A stretch of 22,804 nucleotides of DNA. Source: a virus. Location of the stretch: IMG/VR virus record IMGVR_UViG_3300005530_000449, positions 1 to 22,804 of that record. One strand, 5' to 3'. Position numbers and translations under genes: made by a program. Below are positions 1 to 16,666 of this stretch, piece after piece (positions within the stretch are counted from its first letter, which is position 1; each line of letters begins with the position of its first letter). The notes under the pieces were generated by a model. That model saw nothing but the letters and a program-made list of their open reading frames with translations. It searched no databases and was not told the origin of the DNA.

Positions 1-840
1 CATTTTCAGTTCGAGAAGGCAGCGGTCAAGGCGGGCATCAAGCCCATATTCGGACTGGAGGCGTACTGTGGCTCCGTTCTGGAGGAGAACGATGAGAGAC
101 GACTCGTCCAGCGCGGAGGAGAGGTCGAGCTCCTCCCCGCCCGATCCGCATACAAGAATCACCTCACCCTCCTTGCCGCCACCGCCGCTGGCTATCGAAA
201 CCTCAATAAGATCGTTGCCCAGTCGTACCGAGATTACTATTACCACCCTACAGTATCCGGGGGTAACCTTGCGGCAAATGCCGGCGGCATTGTCGCTCTT
301 TCAGGGTGTTCCGGAAGCCTCCTCGCTTGCGCCCTCCTTGGAGGAAAAGGAACTCCTGAGCATAACGATGATCCTGACTTTGAAAGCGCCAGAGGAGTCA
401 TCGAGCGATTCGAGCGGCTGTTCGGAGAGCGGTACTTCATAGAGATACAGCCGTTCTATGAACTGCCGCGGACCTGCGCCATGAACACCGCCTACGCTCA
501 GCTGAGCAAGGAGATGGGCGTCCCGCTCGCGGTGACCTTCGATGCTCACTACCCGTCCATGGACGACGCAGAGATGCAGGCAGTGCTTCACGCCGTTCAC
601 CGGGGTAAGGCGTCCGTCGACGACGCCATGCGGGAGTGGAACTACGCGGTGCCGCTTACCCTGCCGACCGACGAGCATGAGCTAGTCAACCGGCTGAAGA
701 AGACCGGGCTGACCGGACGCCAGGCCTGGGCCGCGATCATGGCGACGGCCGAGATCGCCGACATGTGTGATGTAACCCTACCCAAGGCCGAGAAGCTGCG
801 CTATCCGGCCGAGCCAAAGGACCTAGAGCCGTGGACGTGA
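1..840 (+). CDS. DNA polymerase III alpha subunit, PHP-domain part (5' end outside window)
   Basis: Reading frame 1 is open from the first base to the TGA at 838-840, giving 279 residues, so the start codon lies upstream of the window. The protein matches the N-terminal PHP domain of bacterial DnaE. It opens with an H followed by FEKAAVKAGIKPIFGLEAY, the segment after the usual DHG motif. It then has HLTLLA, IVALSGCSGSLLACALLGGK, YFIEIQ and the metal-site-like AVTFDAHYPSMDDAEMQ. In DnaE the PHP domain is a metal-binding domain that can be a nuclease or a structural part next to the palm. Here it ends by itself, without palm or fingers, which are encoded two genes downstream. Its stop overlaps the next gene by 10 bases. 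That the two polypeptides assemble into one polymerase is inference. An independent PHP phosphoesterase is less likely given the DnaE-type motifs. Confidence 0.85.
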   Translation, partial: HFQFEKAAVKAGIKPIFGLEAYCGSVLEENDERRLVQRGGEVELLPARSAYKNHLTLLAATAAGYRNLNKIVAQSYRDYYYHPTVSGGNLAANAGGIVALSGCSGSLLACALLGGKGTPEHNDDPDFESARGVIERFERLFGERYFIEIQPFYELPRTCAMNTAYAQLSKEMGVPLAVTFDAHYPSMDDAEMQAVLHAVHRGKASVDDAMREWNYAVPLTLPTDEHELVNRLKKTGLTGRQAWAAIMATAEIADMCDVTLPKAEKLRYPAEPKDLEPWT

Positions 841-1097
841 ACGAATTTGAGCCTATCATCCCTCCGACGACGCTGAACGAGATAGAGGACGAGGCGCTGC
901 GTGCATGGCAGAAGCACGGCGAACACGCCATGATCAACCCGGCGCTGCCGACGCTGGAACGTCTCTCCATTCTTGGCGAGGAGTTCGGCGAGGTCTGCCG
1001 CGCCCTCACGTACGACTCCGGCGAGGGCAATGTGGAGCTTCGGAAGGAACTGATACAGCTGGCCGCCATGGCCGCCTGCTGGGCGGGGGTCCTGTGA
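831..1097 (+). CDS. MazG-like nucleotide pyrophosphohydrolase-type protein
   Basis: This is an 88-residue protein starting at GTG 831, with an AAAGGA-type ribosome site about 9 bases upstream. It has the helical MazG/dUTPase-like signature: an EExxE element (ILGEEFGEVCRAL, around residues 49-61) followed by a second acidic helix (ELRKELIQLAAMAACWA, about residues 69-86). Known MazG-like enzymes hydrolyse (d)NTPs to monophosphates using Mg ions held by such Glu/Asp residues. At 88 residues it is a single-domain form typical of phages. It overlaps the PHP gene at its start and the polymerase catalytic gene at its end (GTGA at 1094-1097), so it lies between two parts of one enzyme. A role in cleaning or shaping the nucleotide pool near the polymerase is inference. 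Confidence 0.75.
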   Translation: MDVNEFEPIIPPTTLNEIEDEALRAWQKHGEHAMINPALPTLERLSILGEEFGEVCRALTYDSGEGNVELRKELIQLAAMAACWAGVL

Positions 1098-3340
1098 CCT
1101 CCGAGGAGCTGCTCTGGCAGTGGTGCCGGTTCGGATGGAAGTACCGGCGCATTCACGAGCGGCCGAAGGAGCAGCAGGACTGGTACGCCGAGCGCACCAA
1201 GTATGAGATGGGCCTGATCGTCGACAAGGACTATGCGGACTTCTTCCTGGCCACGAGCGACATGGTGCGCTGGGCTAAGGACTCCGGCATCCCGATGGGG
1301 CCGGGCCGTGGCTCCGTGGCCGCTAGCGTGGTCAGCTGGCTGATCCGTATCACCGAGGTTGACCCCATCCGCTACCCCCACCTCCTGTTCGAGAGGTTTA
1401 TCGATGTCACTCGTACCGATCCTCCTGATATCGACCTTGACATCAGTGACGAGCGTCGTCACGAAGTACGCGAATACATGGCCTCACGCTATGGCGGTGA
1501 TTGTGTTGGTACAGTTGCCAACTTTGTGCGCTATCGTGGGAAGAACTCGCTAGACGATACATGCCGCGTCTACCAGATCCCGCACTGGGCAAAGAAGGCG
1601 ATCAGCGAGCGCATTATCGAGCGGTCGGGCGGCGACTCCCGGTTCAGCTCTTCTCTGCAGGACACGTTCGACATGTTCCCCTCGGCGATGGCCATCAAGA
1701 ACCAGTTCCCGAAGGTATGGCAGGCCACCCGGCTTGAGGGTAACGTCCGGGGCATGAGCATTCATGCCGCCGGCCTGATCGTCTCTAACACGCCGCTGAC
1801 CGACGTGTGCTCCGTGTACGACCGGGACGGCCGCTCCGTACTGAGCATTGATAAGTACGACGTTGAGTACGCCGGCATGATCAAGATGGACCTGCTCGGT
1901 CTCAAGACGATGGGTATCATCGCCAACTGCCTCGAGATGGCCGACCTTACCCTGGAGGACCTTTATGCGATACCTGACGATGACCCCCGATCACTGGAGA
2001 TCTTCAAGCGAGGAGATGTCACAGGAATCTTTCAGTTTGAGGGTCGAGCTACCCGCCTGGTCAATAGAGACGTCTCTCCGGATACGTTTGGCGAAGTGGT
2101 CGACATCAATGCACTCAGCCGTCCAGGTCCACTCTTCTCTGGTACTACAGCGGAATACTGTGATGTCAAGCACGGACGCCGTAAGCCAGAGCGCTTTCAT
2201 CCAATCACAGATCGCATCACAGCTCACACGCGCGGTCAGATCATATACCAGGAGCAGATCCTCCAGATCGTTCGGGAAGTAGGCGGATTCGATTGGACGA
2301 ACGCGAACGAGATCCGGAGAATCATCGCCAAGAAGATTGGCGAAGCCGCCTTCAACGTGAGCATGGGGAACTTTGTGGAGGGAGCTGCGAGACTACACTC
2401 TATCGACGAGAAGACGGCGCAGCGGATATGGAAGCGACTTGTCACCTCGGGTACCTATGCGTTTGTCTATGCCCACTCGGTCAGCTACTCGATCCTTGGC
2501 TTGTGGTGTGCATGGCTAAAGGCCCACTACCCGCTGGAGTTCTATGCGGCGTCGCTGGCGAAGGAGGGGGATGTCGAGGGCCAGTTCAAGCTGATGAAGG
2601 ACGCCCAGGCGCACGGCATAGCGATCCGCCCGCCCTCGCTGACGAACTCCAGAGGAAGCTGGACTGGTGTACCGAACATTGGCCTCGTCGCGGGCTGGAG
2701 CCAGATCAAGGGGATCGGCGAGAAGACCGCTGACAAAATTCAGGAGTGCGAGCCGGAGGGCGGCTGGAAGAACTGGGCGGACCTTCAGATCGTGCCGGGC
2801 ATCGGACCCAAGACCGTGGAGAAGATGCAGGAGTTCGCCACGGCCAAGGATCCCTTTGGGCTCCACAGGACGGAAGAGATCCTGGACAAGGTAGGCCGCT
2901 GGCTGGGCAGGCAGCGCAACGTTCCGCGCCCCACCCACGACGGAGCCCAGACCGCCGAGATCTATGTAGAGCAGAACTACGGAGCCAATGCCAAGAATAG
3001 TTACGGTGAGGGACCCCGCGTGGTCTACATGGGTCTGGTTCGCGAGATCAACTACCAGGACGCCGTGGAGAACCGCCGCTCACGGACGGGTGAAGAAGCT
3101 GCTGATATCCTCAAGACCCTCAAGCGCCCAGACCTTCTGGCGTACTGCTCTATCCGCTGCTATGACACGACCGACGAAGAGGTCTACCTTCGGGTGAACC
3201 GCTTTAGATTTCCTTCGCTAAAGCGTAAGATAGAGGGTATCGCCGTTAACCACGACGTAGTGGTCTGCGTAGGCAACCGAATCGCGGGGTTCGGTACCCC
3301 ACTCATGGTAGAGAGGCTGTATGTTGTCGACCCCGACTAG
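1094..3340 (+). CDS. dnaE: DNA polymerase III alpha subunit, catalytic part (palm, fingers, HhH)
   Basis: The protein has 748 residues. I chose GTG 1094 because it overlaps the preceding TGA as GTGA; the frame stays open further upstream, but that part shadows the MazG-like gene. The motifs are those of family C polymerases. GPGRGSVAASVVSW is at about residues 69-82. PPDIDLD follows, with D112 and D114 matching the first two catalytic aspartates (E. coli D401 and D403). The third is D266 in KMDLLGLKTMGII. Next come FQFEGRATRLV, ALSRPGPLFSG, IYQEQILQIV and AHSVSYSILGLWCAWLKAHYPLEFYAASL. Two helix-hairpin-helix elements (GIGEKTADKI, PGIGPKTVEKM) and a C-terminal stretch that may be an OB fold complete it. 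The PHP domain is absent and is encoded separately upstream. The N-terminus falls close to the PHP/palm boundary, so this looks like a clean domain split and not decay. All three catalytic aspartates are present, so the enzyme is probably active in replicating phage DNA. Confidence 0.93.
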   Translation: MTSEELLWQWCRFGWKYRRIHERPKEQQDWYAERTKYEMGLIVDKDYADFFLATSDMVRWAKDSGIPMGPGRGSVAASVVSWLIRITEVDPIRYPHLLFERFIDVTRTDPPDIDLDISDERRHEVREYMASRYGGDCVGTVANFVRYRGKNSLDDTCRVYQIPHWAKKAISERIIERSGGDSRFSSSLQDTFDMFPSAMAIKNQFPKVWQATRLEGNVRGMSIHAAGLIVSNTPLTDVCSVYDRDGRSVLSIDKYDVEYAGMIKMDLLGLKTMGIIANCLEMADLTLEDLYAIPDDDPRSLEIFKRGDVTGIFQFEGRATRLVNRDVSPDTFGEVVDINALSRPGPLFSGTTAEYCDVKHGRRKPERFHPITDRITAHTRGQIIYQEQILQIVREVGGFDWTNANEIRRIIAKKIGEAAFNVSMGNFVEGAARLHSIDEKTAQRIWKRLVTSGTYAFVYAHSVSYSILGLWCAWLKAHYPLEFYAASLAKEGDVEGQFKLMKDAQAHGIAIRPPSLTNSRGSWTGVPNIGLVAGWSQIKGIGEKTADKIQECEPEGGWKNWADLQIVPGIGPKTVEKMQEFATAKDPFGLHRTEEILDKVGRWLGRQRNVPRPTHDGAQTAEIYVEQNYGANAKNSYGEGPRVVYMGLVREINYQDAVENRRSRTGEEAADILKTLKRPDLLAYCSIRCYDTTDEEVYLRVNRFRFPSLKRKIEGIAVNHDVVVCVGNRIAGFGTPLMVERLYVVDPD

Positions 3341-3819: not shown

Positions 3820-4014
3820 ATGGGCAGGCCAAAGGGATACAAGCTATCGCAGCAGACCAGGGACCGGATGAGCGCGAGTGCTCTGAAGCGCCACGAGGAA
3901 GAACGGAAGGCCAGGCTGTTCCTGATCAGGATCGACCAGGCGGTGATGGACGGGAACAGGGAACTCGCCCATGAGATACTTGACGAGTACATAGGTGAAC
4001 TAGAGGGGCCATGA
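3820..4014 (+). CDS. small basic protein with AT-hook-like / NUMOD3-like N-terminus
   Basis: This 64-residue protein starts at ATG 3820 behind GGGGCGG. The N-terminus MGRPKGYKLSQQTRDRMSAS combines a GRPKG core, as in AT-hook minor-groove binders, with a stretch resembling the short NUMOD3-type motif (LSxETRxKMSxS) found beside homing endonuclease domains. A charged helical middle and an acidic end (LAHEILDEYIGELEGP) follow. It has no nuclease domain. A DNA-binding role is plausible, but this is inference from short motifs only. Its TGA overlaps the next ATG as ATGA. Confidence 0.55.
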   Translation: MGRPKGYKLSQQTRDRMSASALKRHEEERKARLFLIRIDQAVMDGNRELAHEILDEYIGELEGP

Positions 4015-4430
4015 TACCAACAACAGAAGACCACGCGTTTATGGGCGTGGCAAAGTCGATCTCGGGCCTGGCCCGCTGTACCCATCGGAACGTCGGCGCG
4101 GTCGTTGTGTCCTCCGAGGGCCGCATACTCGGGCACGGCTACGCCAAGGGTCCGTACGGCCAGCCGACCTGCATACAGGGCGGCTGCCCGCGCGGCAAGC
4201 TCCCGGCCGGCCAGGGCAAGAGCGACTACAGCGACTGCATCACGGTCCATGCCGAGGTGGGCGCGATCGTGATGGCCAGCCCCCAGTTCTGGCACGCCGC
4301 CACGCTGTACGTGAACAGCGAGCCCTGCTTCATGTGCTACCGGGTGGCCGAGGGATCCGGCATCTACCGGGTCGTCTGGCAGGGCGGGAACGAGTGGGAC
4401 ATGTACGAACGGCATTTCTTCAAGCCCTAG
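4011..4430 (+). CDS. deoxycytidylate (dCMP) deaminase
   Basis: This 139-residue protein starts in an ATGA overlap with the gene before. It carries the zinc site of the cytidine/deoxycytidylate deaminase family: HAE with H80 and the proton-shuttling E82, then PCFMC with C106 and C109. The region between (CIQGGCPRGKLPAGQGKSDYSDC) has the extra Cys-rich loop typical of dCMP deaminases of the ComEB/phage type. The enzyme converts dCMP to dUMP, the precursor of dTTP, and the gene follows polymerase and MazG-like genes as nucleotide-metabolism genes often do. Length fits the family. A general cytidine deaminase is less likely because of the loop and the operon context. Confidence 0.9.
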   Translation: MIPTTEDHAFMGVAKSISGLARCTHRNVGAVVVSSEGRILGHGYAKGPYGQPTCIQGGCPRGKLPAGQGKSDYSDCITVHAEVGAIVMASPQFWHAATLYVNSEPCFMCYRVAEGSGIYRVVWQGGNEWDMYERHFFKP

Positions 4431-4908: not shown

Positions 4909-5736
4909 ATGTCTAATCGTGAACTGATGAGCTGGCGAGATGTTAGGAACTGCGTACTGGCTGCGATCGCCATTACCCTGGTGATATGCGGCGGGTCATA
5001 CCTCGGGGCCGGTGGCCCGTTGCCGGACGCGATGGCCGCGAACTCGGCAGTGAGCCAGCCGGTAACGCACATCAATCTGAGCAATGAACAGGTGCGACAG
5101 AAACCGGCTGCCGCCGCCGTCAGCCCGGTAGTCGTTCACCAGATCGCCGACGTGTCTCGCACCTACCGCGTGCGGCCGGGCGACTCACTGAGCACAATCT
5201 CTGCCCGCATCTATGGATCGTCCAAGTACTGGACGGGCATCTACTGGGCCAACAATAGCACGATCAAGTACGCCAACGTCATCTACGTCGGCCAGAACCT
5301 CACCGTTCCCGTCAACCCCCACGCGCTAGCCGCCCCGCGTGTTCTGTCTCCTGCCTCGTCACCTCAGCCGCATCGGTTCGCCACGGCGACCGATTCCACC
5401 GGGAGCATCCCCCAGCCCACGGTGGTTTCTGGCGGGCAGTCGCAGCACTCAACCGCGAGCGGGCAGCTGACGCCCGGACAGGTTGGCGCGCTATGGATAG
5501 AGGCAGGCGGCCCGGCCTGGGCCGAGCCGGCAGCCGAGTCGGTCGCCATGTGCGAGTCGGGTGACAACACCAACGCCTATAACCCGAGCGGGGCGAGCGG
5601 GCTGTGGCAGATCCTCGGGAGCGTGGTCGGAGGCAACCTGTTCAACGGCTACACCAACGCCCTCAACGCAGTCGCCAAGTTCAAGGCGAGCGGGAACAAC
5701 TGGAATCAGTGGGTGTGCAAGCCATGGCTCTCGTAA
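4909..5736 (+). CDS. exported LysM and Rpf/SLT-like peptidoglycan hydrolase
   Basis: The protein has 275 residues. Residues 14-34 form a hydrophobic segment, and A41-M42-A43 is a possible signal peptidase site, so it is probably exported or anchored. A LysM domain, which binds peptidoglycan glycan strands, spans about 85-134 (TYRVRPGDSLSTISARIYG ... VGQNLTVP). A Ser/Pro/Gln-rich linker follows. The C-terminal lysozyme-like domain (about 190-275) has the pattern C215-E216-S-G and NPSGASGLWQI. E216 is the likely catalytic acid. C215 directly before it, with C270 near the end, recalls the disulfide of actinobacterial resuscitation-promoting factors. It would cut glycan strands as a lysozyme or lytic transglycosylase. 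The gene lies outside the late operon, facing it across a shared terminator. It may be a second lysin, an entry-related enzyme or a host-modifying gene. Confidence 0.85.
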   Translation: MSNRELMSWRDVRNCVLAAIAITLVICGGSYLGAGGPLPDAMAANSAVSQPVTHINLSNEQVRQKPAAAAVSPVVVHQIADVSRTYRVRPGDSLSTISARIYGSSKYWTGIYWANNSTIKYANVIYVGQNLTVPVNPHALAAPRVLSPASSPQPHRFATATDSTGSIPQPTVVSGGQSQHSTASGQLTPGQVGALWIEAGGPAWAEPAAESVAMCESGDNTNAYNPSGASGLWQILGSVVGGNLFNGYTNALNAVAKFKASGNNWNQWVCKPWLS

Positions 5737-5882: not shown

Positions 5883-6707
5883 CTACCTGTAGGTGACCGA
5901 CACGGTCGTCCCTGGGGCCACGTGGGTACCTGGAGCCGGGGTCTGGGTGGCGATGATCGGGAGCGGCTCCCCGTGCGGGTGAAGCCCCGCCTCGGACAGG
6001 ATCTTGACGGCGTCCGAGGCCTCCTTGCCCACCACGTTCGGCACGACGACGGTACCCGGCTGAGGAACGTACGGATGCGGCCACTGCCCGAAGTCCGCCT
6101 GCCTCTGCACATGTACGTTCACGTCAACGCCGACGAGGGGCGGCGTATGCACCGTCTGTAGCAGATTGATCCGGGGATCGACGTTGCCGCCGGACCAGGC
6201 GACCGTCTGCCATCCCATGGTCGCGAGGCCCGCATCCATAATGCGCTTGACAGCCCAGTACCCGCCGTACACGCCGATGCGGTAGCCGCCCTTGTAGTCC
6301 TTGATGGCCTTGAAGTACTGGCCGATCGGTCCCAGCTTCTCCATCGCGTTCTGTGGGGTATTCGCGAGCGAGGGCGCGTAGTCCGGGATGTCGTAGTCCA
6401 CGGCGAAGTACACGCCCGTGGTGACCGGCGCGTCCAGCTGCGCCAGCTGCTCCTTGGCGAGGGCGGCGTCCTTCGCGCCCTGCTCGTGACCGAGCGCCGC
6501 CGCGTTGGCCAGGTACTCGAACACGATTCCGACCGAGATCCCGGCCCTGATGTAGGCGTCGGCCTCCGCCTTGGTCAGGTTCTTCCCGGTGTTGGGGTAC
6601 CCGCTGACCCCGTCCCAGCCGATGTACCGCATGACGGTCGTCACGCCCGCCGACTTGAGCAGTGGGATGCTCGGCCGGGCCGTGCTGAAGTCGATGATGA
6701 TGCCCAT
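5883..6707 (-). CDS. endolysin: DUF1906 glycoside hydrolase-like domain plus PASTA domain
   Basis: The protein has 274 residues. I chose ATG 6707 because GGAGAAGTA precedes it and it forms a TAATG junction with the gene upstream; the frame stays open further upstream but that part shadows the neighbour. Residues 1-210 match the DUF1906/Rv2525c-like glycoside hydrolase fold. The TIM-barrel strand ends carry acidic residues (IIIDFS with D6; GIVFEY; GVYFAVDYD) and the late VGVDVNVHVQRQADFGQW. Residues 219-274 are one PASTA repeat (VVVPNVVGKEASDAVKILSE ... APGTTVSVTY), a domain known to bind peptidoglycan. As the last gene of the late operon, behind membrane protein genes, it is the probable lysis enzyme. 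No signal peptide is visible, which fits release through a holin. Substrate specificity is not shown by the sequence. Confidence 0.8.
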   Translation of the reverse strand: MGIIIDFSTARPSIPLLKSAGVTTVMRYIGWDGVSGYPNTGKNLTKAEADAYIRAGISVGIVFEYLANAAALGHEQGAKDAALAKEQLAQLDAPVTTGVYFAVDYDIPDYAPSLANTPQNAMEKLGPIGQYFKAIKDYKGGYRIGVYGGYWAVKRIMDAGLATMGWQTVAWSGGNVDPRINLLQTVHTPPLVGVDVNVHVQRQADFGQWPHPYVPQPGTVVVPNVVGKEASDAVKILSEAGLHPHGEPLPIIATQTPAPGTHVAPGTTVSVTYR

Positions 6708-7036
6708 TACTTCTCCTCTTCTTTCGTGTCGATCTTCCTCTGCTTCTTCCAGATCATCACGCTGCGCCAGATGACGATGATGGGTATGAGCCATATCGAT
6801 ATTGCAATGAGCCAGATGAAGAAGTCCTTGCTGACATTGGTCCCGAAAACCCGGTGCACGAATGACGGAAGGAGAGCGATGGATACAGCCAGATCCAGAA
6901 GGACTATGTTCCATCCCCACTCGTCCTTCTCCCAGGCCCAGATTATCCGGATGTAGGCGGGGAAGAAGAATGGCACGAGGAATGCAAAGTCCACACCCCA
7001 GTTGATAAGGTCAAAGGCTATCTGTCTCGGGTCCAT
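6707..7036 (-). CDS. multi-TM membrane protein, holin candidate
   Basis: The protein has 109 residues. ATG 7036 is preferred to the GTG at 7039 because the AAGGAG site is slightly less crowded there. About three hydrophobic segments are visible: residues 8-30 (including FAFLVPFFFPAYIRIIW), about 40-58 (NIVLLDLAVSIALLPSF) and about 72-92 (FFIWLIAISIWLIPIIVIW). A charged C-terminal tail (WKKQRKIDTKEEE) follows, as is common in holins. The stop overlaps the endolysin start as TAATG. Position and topology fit a holin that opens the inner membrane for the DUF1906 enzyme, but the family is not recognised. Confidence 0.65.
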   Translation of the reverse strand: MDPRQIAFDLINWGVDFAFLVPFFFPAYIRIIWAWEKDEWGWNIVLLDLAVSIALLPSFVHRVFGTNVSKDFFIWLIAISIWLIPIIVIWRSVMIWKKQRKIDTKEEEK

Positions 7037-12868: not shown

Positions 12869-12968
12869 CCTCTTCCTCCCGGTTCCCGGTTCCGAACTGG
12901 AGCACGATGCCGCCCCAGCAGACTATGTCCTGCGGTGCTTCCTCTTCGACCGGCTGTTCCGGTGTCAC
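12858..12968 (-). CDS. tiny acidic ORF (36 aa) between tape measure and tail gene
   Basis: A GTG at 12968 overlaps the tape measure TGA as GTGA, and the frame runs 36 residues to TAG at 12858-12860, passing the ATG of the next gene by 11 bases. The peptide begins VTPEQPVEEEAPQDIVCWGG and ends GNREEEDED. It exactly fills the space between two late genes with overlaps at both ends, which favours a real gene. No close ribosome site is seen, so translational coupling would be needed. No family is recognised. Confidence 0.5.
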   Translation of the reverse strand: MTPEQPVEEEAPQDIVCWGGIVLQFGTGNREEEDED

Positions 12969-15900
12969 TTGTTTCTCCCGAATGCCTTCTGGACGTTGCC
13001 GCCACCCTTGACCCGCACCCACTCGCGGATCGCCATGATCATGAACTGCTCGAACGCCGACTGCCCGCTACTGTCTATCTCTAGCTGGAGAGCGGCAATG
13101 CTGTTCATCCCACCCTGGCTGGCGTAGCCGGGGGTGATGCCGTGGGGGTAGACCTGGGAGCCGGCCGGCAGCCGCACAAGCTCCGGCCCTAGCTCGCCGA
13201 CCATGGTAAGCCCCTGCCGGTAGCCGCCGGTCGCCGCGTGCGGCATGTTCCCGACGATGCCGCCGACCGCCCGCAAGGCACCGCCGCCGATGCCGCCCGG
13301 AACCGGGATCGTGTTCTCCACCTGGACCTGCTGCACAACCGTGGCGTACACCGTCTTGTTGTGAAGCCCGTTCAGGTAGGCTTGGACCTGGTTAATCGCT
13401 GCGATCGCCTGGCCCGTGTTGGCATTGACCGCAACTGTCTTTCCGTGCATCGCATCGATCTTGCGCTGCAGGCCGTCCACGAATTTCGTGGCGTCGGTTG
13501 CGTTCATGCCCGTGGCTTCGAGGTCGGCGATCAGCTGGGCCCGAGCGCCTCGGTAGGCAGCGGTTGATGTACCGCCGTGCACAACCGCATCAGTGAACTT
13601 CTTCATCGCGGCGTTGGCCCCGCTGCTGGCGAGCAGGTCAGCCTGGAACTGAGAGTTGAGATCATTCTGGAGGACGTTGGCGAGGCTCGCTGCCTGTTCC
13701 TGCGCCTTGGCGACGATGGAGGCGAATCCCGACATGCTCGTCGAGTTCTTCCTAACCCAGCCGTCAAGGGTTTGCATTCTCACGGTGCCCGGACCGAGCG
13801 CGTTGTTGATCATGGCCACCATCGTCGACCGCGCGGCATCGTTGTTCCCGGCGAACTGGAGCATCTGTCCGGCCTCGGTGGCGACTGCGGTTGTCAGGTC
13901 GTGGTAGCCCACCTGCTGCTGCTGTAGGGCGTCGATCACCTTCTGGGCGTTGCCGACCTGCTGGTAAAACGCCTGGCTCAGCGTGAGGCTGGCCTGGCTG
14001 GTCCCGCCGAGGACCGCGCCGGTCAGCTTCGCGGAGCTCTTGATGTCTCCGAGACTGTGAGTCACCGTGGCCGCGGATTTCGCCGCGTCGTTGAAGTTCT
14101 GGGACAGCGTCTGCTGGCCAAGTGCGAAAGTGTCGAATGCCGTCACGCCGCCGGTGATGACGTTCATCAGCCCGTCTTCGGCCTGGGTGATCTTCTGGAT
14201 CTGGGTGATCGTCCCGCCCATGACGTTCAGGGCGTTCTGGGCCGCCGCCGCCTGCCCTCGCTGGTAGCCGGCCAGCTGGACCGTGGCGCTGTTCAGCGCC
14301 TTCAGCTCGACGATGTCCTTCGCCCAGCCTTCGGCGTTCGCGTTCGCAATGTCGGACAGCTTGATACCCGCCTGGCTCATTGCGTTCTGCGCGGCGGCGG
14401 AGCTGCCAAAGATCCCGATGAGCTGCTTCTGGCGGCTCTGCTCCATACCGAGCTGTCCGGTCAGCTTCTGAGAGTTACTCTGCAGCTGCTGGTAGGCGCT
14501 GTTGACAGTGGTAACAGAACTGGTGATACCGTGCATGCCAACTTGGGTACGTGTCGTGTACTCGGGGGTCTTGGCAAGCTCCGCGTTCGTGGTGCTGATG
14601 GCGTTCCGGGTAACGCTGATGATCCCAGAGAATGCACTCTGGGCATTGATAGTATTCTCTACCGAGTCCAGGTACTGCTGCTGGGCACTCTTTGCGTTCC
14701 CCAGCCAGGAAACCAGGGCGATGACCCCACCGACTACAAGCGCCACCCCGGCCGCAGCGAGCAGCCAGGGGTTGGCGAGCTTGAGCGTGTCTGTCGCGGC
14801 AGCGGCGATACCAGCGCTGGCCGCCTCCTCGAGGAATGCGGACCCGAGCGCTGCGACGGTTGCTATCCCGTCAATGGCCCAGGTGACGATCGAGGTGAGC
14901 GGACCGCGCAGCGCGAGCAGGGCGGTGCCTGCGAGGCCAGCATAGAAGATGGCACCATGGAGTCCAAGTGCAAGGCCGACGAGCCCCTGGGCCGCTCCGG
15001 ATGACGTGATGTCTTCTAGGGCTCCGGTGATGCCATGGAATACATTGAGCAGAATTTCGGCGTATCCGGGCATTGACTTCAGCAAGTTACCGATGATACC
15101 GAATACATTACCGAACGTATTGGCGAGCAGGGATAGGTCATCAACGCCATGGGCAATGAATGAGGACATGCCCTGGCTGCCCAGGGCCACCTCGATACGT
15201 GCGCCCAGGTCGTCTACAACCCTGCCGGTTTCCACGGCGATATCCTTGAATTCGCCGGTCTTGCCGTTAATCGTGTCCAGCGCTTCCCCGGCGAGGATGT
15301 ATACTTCCGGCTTAACCGCGTCGGCCATCTTGCTAAACTCGTCGCTCAGGCCGGGCAGATGCATCCCGAGCGCCTGGCTCACCGTGAACATGTTCTTCTC
15401 GGCCGTGTACATATCGCCGATGGTCGGAACGGCCGCAGCTGCAAAGGCACCGAATGCGATTCCTGCAGGAATAAGAACGGCAGAAAGCTCGACGATACCC
15501 TCGGTTAGAATGTGGAGGCCGGTAACGGTACCGACCCACTCAGGTGCTCCGAGCTTAGTAAGCCAACCGCCGAAGAGCTGCAGACGACCATTAAGGCGAC
15601 CGAGTACGCCATCACCATTCTTCCAGGTCTTGATCCCGGAGTCCATCGCCCTGCTGAACTTGTCCACGGCGTCGGATGACTTAGAGAGCCCGACAGACAA
15701 TGCATCAAGAAGGATGGCCCCGGAACGTTCGGCGTCGCGTGCGAGTTCCTTCATATTGGGGATGGTATTGTGGGAGAAGACGTCCGCGATCTTTTCCGAC
15801 CAGGGAATCAGCTCGGCCAGGCTCATACCCAGGAGGGACATATACTTGGACGTGCTGCCGGCCTGCTCCCCCATTCGCAGTACCCGGTCTACGAACGGAG

Positions 15901-16666
15901 GGAGAGCGATGTCGGCAGCGGTAAGCGCGACACCGAGCGCGTTCGTCGCCGTGGAAAGATTCTGCTCGGCTGCCACAGCCCCCGTTATGGCGTTACCCAG
16001 CTCTTCGAAGTCGCCGGACTTTGGTAGGTTTGCAATGTCAATCTTCGCCGGTATGTCCAGGATAGGCATGGTCTCGCCATGCCGGACGAATTCCTTGACG
16101 TCGATATTGGCTGGCACGTTAAGGATCGGCTCGTGCGGTCCGACCTCGCGCCCAAAGTCGAATGTGACGGGGACGTGCTCGGTACCGATCTGCCCAAGCT
16201 TCGGCATCTTGGACATATCGAACTTGATCGGGATGTCGATGGCCGCAGCGCCTAGCTTGTGCAGGTCGGCCGAGAGATCGGCGGGCGTCAGGTTGAAGTC
16301 CAGGACGTCCGAAACCCCGCTCTGGTTGATCAGCCGCTTGATCAACTGAAGCTGCGTCATGAGGCGGCCGGGCTGCACGTCAATGTCGGCAAGGTCGGCG
16401 ATGCCCAGTGACTGCATCTTAGAGCGAAGGGCCATCAGGCCGGTGTTGAGATCGCTCATGTTGATGTGGCCGAAGCTGATATCGTCGGCCGCCCGCTTGA
16501 GCACCTCTAGCTTCGTCAGGGCATCGCCGATGCCGAGTTCAAACTGGCGGTCCTTGAACGCTTCGTCCGCAAGCTTCTTGGCCGCATCCAGCTTGGCCAT
16601 CACAGAAGCGAACGCGGGGCCAGTCAGGTCATGAGCGGTGATGCGGATCTCTACCTCATTCGCCAT
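12965..16666 (-). CDS. tape measure protein, 1233 aa
   Basis: ATG 16666 has GGAAGAGG close upstream and overlaps the end of the frameshifted chaperone frame by 11 bases. The protein is the longest helical protein of the late operon. It has an N-terminal coiled coil (MAKLDAAKKLADEAFKDRQF), hydrophobic segments near residues 390-420 and 627-655 (WLLAAAGVALVVGGVIALVSW), and long Gln/Ala-rich helices. The C-terminus has GGIGGGALRAVGGIVGN and GELGPELVRLPAGSQVYPHG (about 1118-1185), the ending typical of siphoviral tape measures. Tape measure proteins set tail length and pass through the membrane at infection. By the usual 1.5 Å per residue rule the tail would be about 185 nm; this is an estimate. 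No peptidase or lysozyme motif is seen inside. Confidence 0.93.
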   Translation of the reverse strand: MANEVEIRITAHDLTGPAFASVMAKLDAAKKLADEAFKDRQFELGIGDALTKLEVLKRAADDISFGHINMSDLNTGLMALRSKMQSLGIADLADIDVQPGRLMTQLQLIKRLINQSGVSDVLDFNLTPADLSADLHKLGAAAIDIPIKFDMSKMPKLGQIGTEHVPVTFDFGREVGPHEPILNVPANIDVKEFVRHGETMPILDIPAKIDIANLPKSGDFEELGNAITGAVAAEQNLSTATNALGVALTAADIALPPFVDRVLRMGEQAGSTSKYMSLLGMSLAELIPWSEKIADVFSHNTIPNMKELARDAERSGAILLDALSVGLSKSSDAVDKFSRAMDSGIKTWKNGDGVLGRLNGRLQLFGGWLTKLGAPEWVGTVTGLHILTEGIVELSAVLIPAGIAFGAFAAAAVPTIGDMYTAEKNMFTVSQALGMHLPGLSDEFSKMADAVKPEVYILAGEALDTINGKTGEFKDIAVETGRVVDDLGARIEVALGSQGMSSFIAHGVDDLSLLANTFGNVFGIIGNLLKSMPGYAEILLNVFHGITGALEDITSSGAAQGLVGLALGLHGAIFYAGLAGTALLALRGPLTSIVTWAIDGIATVAALGSAFLEEAASAGIAAAATDTLKLANPWLLAAAGVALVVGGVIALVSWLGNAKSAQQQYLDSVENTINAQSAFSGIISVTRNAISTTNAELAKTPEYTTRTQVGMHGITSSVTTVNSAYQQLQSNSQKLTGQLGMEQSRQKQLIGIFGSSAAAQNAMSQAGIKLSDIANANAEGWAKDIVELKALNSATVQLAGYQRGQAAAAQNALNVMGGTITQIQKITQAEDGLMNVITGGVTAFDTFALGQQTLSQNFNDAAKSAATVTHSLGDIKSSAKLTGAVLGGTSQASLTLSQAFYQQVGNAQKVIDALQQQQVGYHDLTTAVATEAGQMLQFAGNNDAARSTMVAMINNALGPGTVRMQTLDGWVRKNSTSMSGFASIVAKAQEQAASLANVLQNDLNSQFQADLLASSGANAAMKKFTDAVVHGGTSTAAYRGARAQLIADLEATGMNATDATKFVDGLQRKIDAMHGKTVAVNANTGQAIAAINQVQAYLNGLHNKTVYATVVQQVQVENTIPVPGGIGGGALRAVGGIVGNMPHAATGGYRQGLTMVGELGPELVRLPAGSQVYPHGITPGYASQGGMNSIAALQLEIDSSGQSAFEQFMIMAIREWVRVKGGGNVQKAFGRNK

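Follow-up and report, generated by a model that had tools for sequence, protein, structure and literature searches.

Organization of the polymerase locus

The window analysed here is a viral record of 22,804 bases whose 5' end falls inside a PHP gene. The PHP and palm regions of a DnaE-type polymerase, which are usually joined in one polypeptide, are encoded on separate open reading frames (ORFs), each with its own stop or start codon. A small MazG-like gene lies between them. The features of the locus are as follows.

1–840, plus strand: PHP subunit of the split DnaE, open at the 5' end (Pfam PF02811, 4e-18; phrog_7513/405, ~1e-60)
817–837, plus strand: C-terminal tail of the PHP chain, KDLEPWT, containing the D-x-x-P-W motif
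831–840, plus strand: 10-nt overlap of the PHP gene and the slot gene; the slot-gene GTG lies across the Pro-Trp codons and the PHP stop is TGA
831–1097, plus strand: MazG-like slot gene, 88 aa, GTG start (phrog_2831, 1.5e-9; three-helix AlphaFold2 model)
1094–1097, plus strand: 4-nt GTGA overlap of the slot-gene stop and the palm start
1094–3340, plus strand: polymerase core subunit (palm, thumb, fingers, HhH), 748 aa, GTG start (matches in Pfam, phrog_11165 and PDB DnaE structures)
1427–1435, plus strand: catalytic D112 and D114 (PDIDLD), invariant in 12 relatives
1889–1891, plus strand: catalytic D266, invariant in 12 relatives

An ORF check returned this three-gene arrangement with its overlaps and coordinates exactly as described in the initial annotation. 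An upstream ATG at 905 was considered as the palm start and rejected, since homology begins at 1094 and the palm of L019, a relative with an empty slot, begins at the equivalent point. In DnaE1 of M. tuberculosis, the PHP domain spans residues 1–300 and the palm begins at 301 (PMC5636811). The cut in the window corresponds to this transition, in agreement with the earlier placement of the break near the normal domain boundary. In relatives with a fused gene, matches to PHP and to palm adjoin or lie at most a few dozen residues apart; thus, no conserved segment has been lost at the cut.

The two polymerase chains

The core chain matches Pfam families PF07733 (DNA_pol3_alpha; 3.5e-64) and PF17657 (finger; 9e-37), phrog_11165 (1e-261) and DnaE entries of the PDB (6e-86). 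This half alone scores 439 bits against TIGR00594, above the cut-off of 434. An alignment of 12 relatives shows D112, D114 and D266 without variation, which, together with the Pfam matches, bears out the reading of a catalytically equipped palm starting at 1094. Comparison of the window with its sister phage L023 gave dN/dS ratios of about 0.07 for the palm gene, 0.10 for the PHP gene and 0.20 for the MazG-like gene, rough values because synonymous sites are partly saturated. The low ratios indicate that all three genes are protein-coding and constrained. A second DnaE split site, just past the third catalytic aspartate (LSLQTMG), is seen in L012 (Mycobacterium phage Fowlmouth, 4842–8032) and L016 (Corynebacterium phage P1201, 4776–8136), two phages that the palm tree does not place as sisters.

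The PHP chain of the window is incomplete, its first approximately 40 residues lying off the contig. Profile searches matched the gene to Pfam PHP (4e-18) and to NCBIfam DnaE models (3e-30). Active PHP proofreading exonucleases carry the motif HHDHEH[C/H]DH (PMC12926913). Five of these nine metal ligands fall inside the window and all five are kept, the other four being known only from relatives. Of 60 complete split PHP proteins, 58 keep the whole nine-ligand motif, as against 91 of 94 fused ones. Judged by its sequence, the window protein is a putative 3'–5' proofreading exonuclease.

The initial annotation had named a stand-alone phosphoesterase, unrelated to the polymerase, as the identity that would undo its reading of this gene. 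An AlphaFold2 model of the orthologous PHP protein of L020 (pLDDT 91.9) reaches Z values of about 36 with DnaE PHP domains, as against at most 16.7 with stand-alone PHP enzymes. This fold ranking places the protein far closer to the polymerase domain, so that the phosphoesterase identity is rejected and orthology to the DnaE PHP domain is supported. Two irregularities were noted among the relatives. L018 (1–1716) has a frameshift in the PHP gene near the TEHG motif; this gene may be broken or the contig misassembled. In Mycobacterium phage Candle (L011, 4857–5792), gp70 is a separate PHP subunit, and its record names it 'DNA polymerase III sliding clamp (Beta)', which looks like a misannotation.

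Recurrence of the split among relatives

Relatives were gathered from deposited phages and from IMG/VR, and were classed as split or fused by whether one ORF holds both PHP and palm. Clustering at 95% PHP identity left 50 split and 85 fused genes; these are counts and not frequencies, as the second search used an alignment of split PHP proteins. The same boundary cut is thus found in 50 distinct phages, deposited complete genomes included, while 85 carry an intact gene. The split is not special to the window phage, and several deposited genomes are annotated with two pol III alpha genes. Wherever both halves are seen among the 50 split cases, PHP and palm adjoin within one operon. Of the gene order proposed earlier, the PHP/palm cut recurs in related phages, but the intervening gene varies or is absent.

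On the palm tree, all ten split rows of the window clade group together, and L060 and L062 are the nearest fused relatives. The split state requires seven changes on this tree, and well-supported branches force every one of them. Seven are likewise needed on the PHP tree, whose clades match those of the palm tree. A single split clade is rejected by the AU test on the palm tree (p 2.15e-5). The change counts give no direction and accommodate both repeated fission and an old fission followed by re-fusions; an ancestral split with repeated re-fusions is possible. Exchange of PHP modules between lineages, considered as a source of the scattered distribution, is unsupported because the two trees share clades.

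A variable slot between the halves

In 15 of the 50 split genes, the slot is shorter than 80 nt and counts as empty; in L019, the palm start codon overlaps the PHP stop. Elsewhere the gap reaches more than 1 kb and contains unrelated ORFs. Tiling was possible for 34 occupied slots, which hold 47 ORFs belonging to 32 sequence families. Among the closest relatives, the slot contains Cys-rich ORFs (L020, L021) or small membrane-like ORFs (L022, L025, L058); in the wider set, methyltransferases also occur (L152, L159, L216). The slot of L023 contains the MazG-like gene of the window and two other genes. A DnaQ-like DEDD exonuclease (phrog_192, DNA polymerase exonuclease subunit; 4e-20) lies between PHP and palm in L149 (6562–7032) and L151 (2410–2946); in these two loci, two classes of proofreading nuclease stand side by side. 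Even Madi and Sienna, two isolates of one species, differ in an 85-aa slot gene, which Sienna has and Madi lacks. This variation fits a tolerated site at which passenger genes are acquired and lost.

No endonuclease gene lies between the halves in the window. Such genes do occur in the slots of L018 (an HNH/NUMOD3-type ORF, with a different MazG type), L168 and L170 (NUMOD3-type homing endonucleases) and L115 (endonuclease VII; Pfam 7e-13). By analogy with gene 43 and nrdA of T4-related phages (PMC2988022), homing-type endonucleases are a plausible vehicle for these changes in slot content. A small conserved protein with the core DxAWxVIxxWPLGxPxxxxAALxVLKVIAxTS is encoded directly before the palm gene in L018 (2465–2962), L020 (5667–6011), L021 (5703–6011) and L023 (5772–6011).

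The MazG-like gene

The slot gene of the window belongs to a small but widespread protein family of phages and some bacteria, with the motif LGEEFGEVC...ELIQ/H. The EExxE element of MazG proteins is kept, and the usual ExxD reads ExxQ here and ExxH in other family members. Searches of Pfam and NCBIfam gave no match, phrog_2831 (1.5e-9) being the only family hit, and sequence comparison of the 88-aa protein with the PDB returned nothing useful. The AlphaFold2 model is a three-helix structure (pLDDT 90.8). A fold search with it ranked 2p06 (Z 9.2) and 7ody (Z 6.4), moderate values mixed with those of unrelated helical proteins, and Foldseek found no match under E 0.001. The 'MazG-like' label is a weak one: it has the phrog_2831 and moderate fold matches behind it, but the missing Pfam and NCBIfam matches and the altered ExxD element count against it. 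The protein shares EExxE with the all-alpha NTP pyrophosphatases, such as MazG of cyanophage S-2L (7ody), and its helical fold resembles theirs moderately; unlike them, it has ExxQ for ExxD, is only 88 aa long and matches no curated family.

A conserved tail on split PHP chains

The C-terminus of split PHP chains reads [RK]-Y-P-x4-D-[LW]-x-P-W. The D-x-x-P-W part, allowing slight variation at Pro, is present in 42 of 50 split PHP chains and in none of 85 fused linkers, the letters allowed in the two patterns differing slightly. A looser form, D/E-x(2,3)-W, is found in 49 of the 50; this count covers the split chains, and the palm helix of fused proteins has Trp residues nearby. The D and the W are invariant across 19 aligned split PHP chains. 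The CC[AG]-TGG codons of the motif often supply the start of the next gene, which overlaps the PHP end by 10 nt in 30 of the 50 cases. In L003, L007, L018, L069, L079 and L087, the motif is kept while that start is not used, which marks it as a feature of the protein.

In the L020 model, the confidence of the tail is about 68–74, below that of the core, as expected for a segment that would bind another partner. Its conservation and lower model confidence suggest that the tail may aid docking of the PHP chain onto the palm chain. A comparison with the acidic C-terminus of SSB was dropped because several tails run past the Trp (L003, L007, L079). We tentatively suggest, as a wider reading that falls somewhat short of being probable, that a PHP proofreader, on becoming a separate subunit, always gains or keeps the tail as a docking motif. 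On this reading, these phages would have natural two-part proofreading polymerases with an evolutionary slot at the junction, one of which (L149/L151) has even taken in a DEDD-family proofreading exonuclease.

A probable two-subunit polymerase and the alternatives

Sequence comparison establishes both halves as DnaE orthologues with kept active sites, purifying selection and agreeing trees. The locus probably encodes a DnaE-type polymerase made as two subunits, a PHP exonuclease and a core, which reassemble; the junction serves as a slot, and the MazG-like gene is a passenger. The proposed steps are these. (i) The polymerase is made as an active PHP proofreading exonuclease (1–840) and a polymerase core (1094–3340). 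(ii) Both chains would be translated from one message by way of the overlapping stop and start codons. (iii) The chains would then bind non-covalently into one enzyme, with help from the D-x-x-P-W tail. (iv) The cut would leave a tolerated gap inside the polymerase operon, and this gap would serve as a slot that unrelated small genes, some of them homing-type endonucleases, enter and leave. The initial annotation had likewise proposed two polypeptides that reassemble. A genuine two-chain DnaE under constraint agrees with that proposal, but the physical reassembly is a step that we infer.

The same annotation suggested that the middle gene couples nucleotide clean-up to synthesis. In this form, the MazG-like protein would be a partner dedicated to clearing bad nucleotides from the fork, and the three-gene order would be functional. 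The translational overlaps across all three genes, the same gene at the same place in L023 and the purifying selection on it are what one would expect. Three other slots contain a second MazG type, which has the complete motif and aligns weakly with that of the window; pyrophosphatase-like genes of two types in 5 of 34 slots are suggestive and could hint at a functional bias. The slot comparison nevertheless speaks against a fixed partner. The MazG type of the window is found in only two of the 34 occupied slots (the window and L023), and relatives whose polymerases are 60–85% identical have an empty slot or unrelated genes there. Homologues elsewhere lie away from DnaE: among the viral loci fetched with the MazG-like protein, only L026, which is the same contig as L023, also has DnaE parts. 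ExxQ in place of ExxD also weighs against the idea. A fixed MazG partner is rejected by this comparison, the coupling proposal finds no support in the present evidence, and a dedicated role is improbable. As the junction of relatives holds different, unrelated genes, the MazG-like gene is probably a passenger, that is, a constrained coding gene that is not part of the polymerase machine.

It is slightly less likely again that the halves stay apart, with PHP as an independent nuclease or phosphoesterase and a palm chain that acts alone or with a host proofreader. The confident stand-alone fold predicted for the PHP domain would suit such a separation, but the two genes adjoin in every split operon in which both are seen, share tree clades, and encode a PHP fold of the DnaE/PolC type, unlike stand-alone PHP enzymes. 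Restoration of a single chain by a programmed frameshift, an intein or an intron is very unlikely. Frames do overlap at both junctions, and cyanobacterial DnaE has known split inteins (cited in PMC3919608). Against this, gaps vary from overlap to more than 1 kb and carry unrelated ORFs, every palm has its own start codon, and a Pfam scan of either chain detected no intein family. The chain ends also match relatives directly, PHP ending in a tail of 10–12 residues and the palm beginning at the conserved region. An origin in sequencing error, frameshift or decay has next to no chance of being correct. The window is a metagenome contig, and L018 has its frameshift near the PHP N-terminus; the identical cut in 50 distinct phages, the kept catalytic residues and a dN well under dS refute this origin, and the original view that the junctions are not decay is upheld.

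Relation to known systems

Cluster EF Microbacterium phages have been described with two pol III alpha-related genes where one is usual (PMC7302621, PMC13080520). In these phages, and in Gordonia phages Sienna and Madi, Mycobacterium phages Onyinye and Candle and Rhodococcus phage ChewyVIII, PHP and polymerase are in separate neighbouring genes cut at the same boundary. Some have a small gene between the halves; unlike the window, they have no MazG-like gene there. The cluster EF papers state only that the two genes exist, and the recurrence, slot behaviour and tail are absent from them. No description of these three was found in the open-access literature, most subscription papers lying outside the search. 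Within that scope, the tail is new here; the two pol III alpha genes of cluster EF phages were already published.

Other divided replication enzymes offer partial parallels. The split gp43 (43A/43B) and nrdA products of T4-related phages are reported to assemble into active enzymes; as in the window, an essential replication enzyme is in two parts, sometimes with a homing endonuclease gene between them (PMC2988022). Those enzymes, however, are a B-family polymerase and a reductase, with another cut site, no PHP and a narrower described cargo (PMC2988022). Group 2.2 jumbo phages also divide a C-family polymerase between two proteins, which are thought to come together again, but their minimal pol III alpha lacks PHP and is cut inside the catalytic part, and its genes are far apart (PMC7824862). 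Cyanobacterial DnaE likewise comes from two genes, its products being joined by protein splicing (both as cited in PMC3919608), whereas no intein was detected in the window.

Repeated separation of proofreader and core is a natural test of whether PHP proofreading needs covalent linkage, and the split polymerase lets one ask whether phages trade or tune fidelity. That an essential operon tolerates insertions at one site helps to account for the entry of small genes into phage replication modules. The slot comparison is also a warning against inferring function from neighbourhood alone.

Other genes in the window

Downstream of the polymerase lies a dCMP deaminase-like gene (4011–4430; Pfam 1.5e-16, phrog_2369). 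A LysM and transglycosylase-like protein on the plus strand adjoins an endolysin-like gene on the minus strand (4909–5736 and 5883–6920). An ORF of 1233 aa on the minus strand (12965–16666), with no PHROGs match at E 0.001, is situated amid the tail and virion genes.
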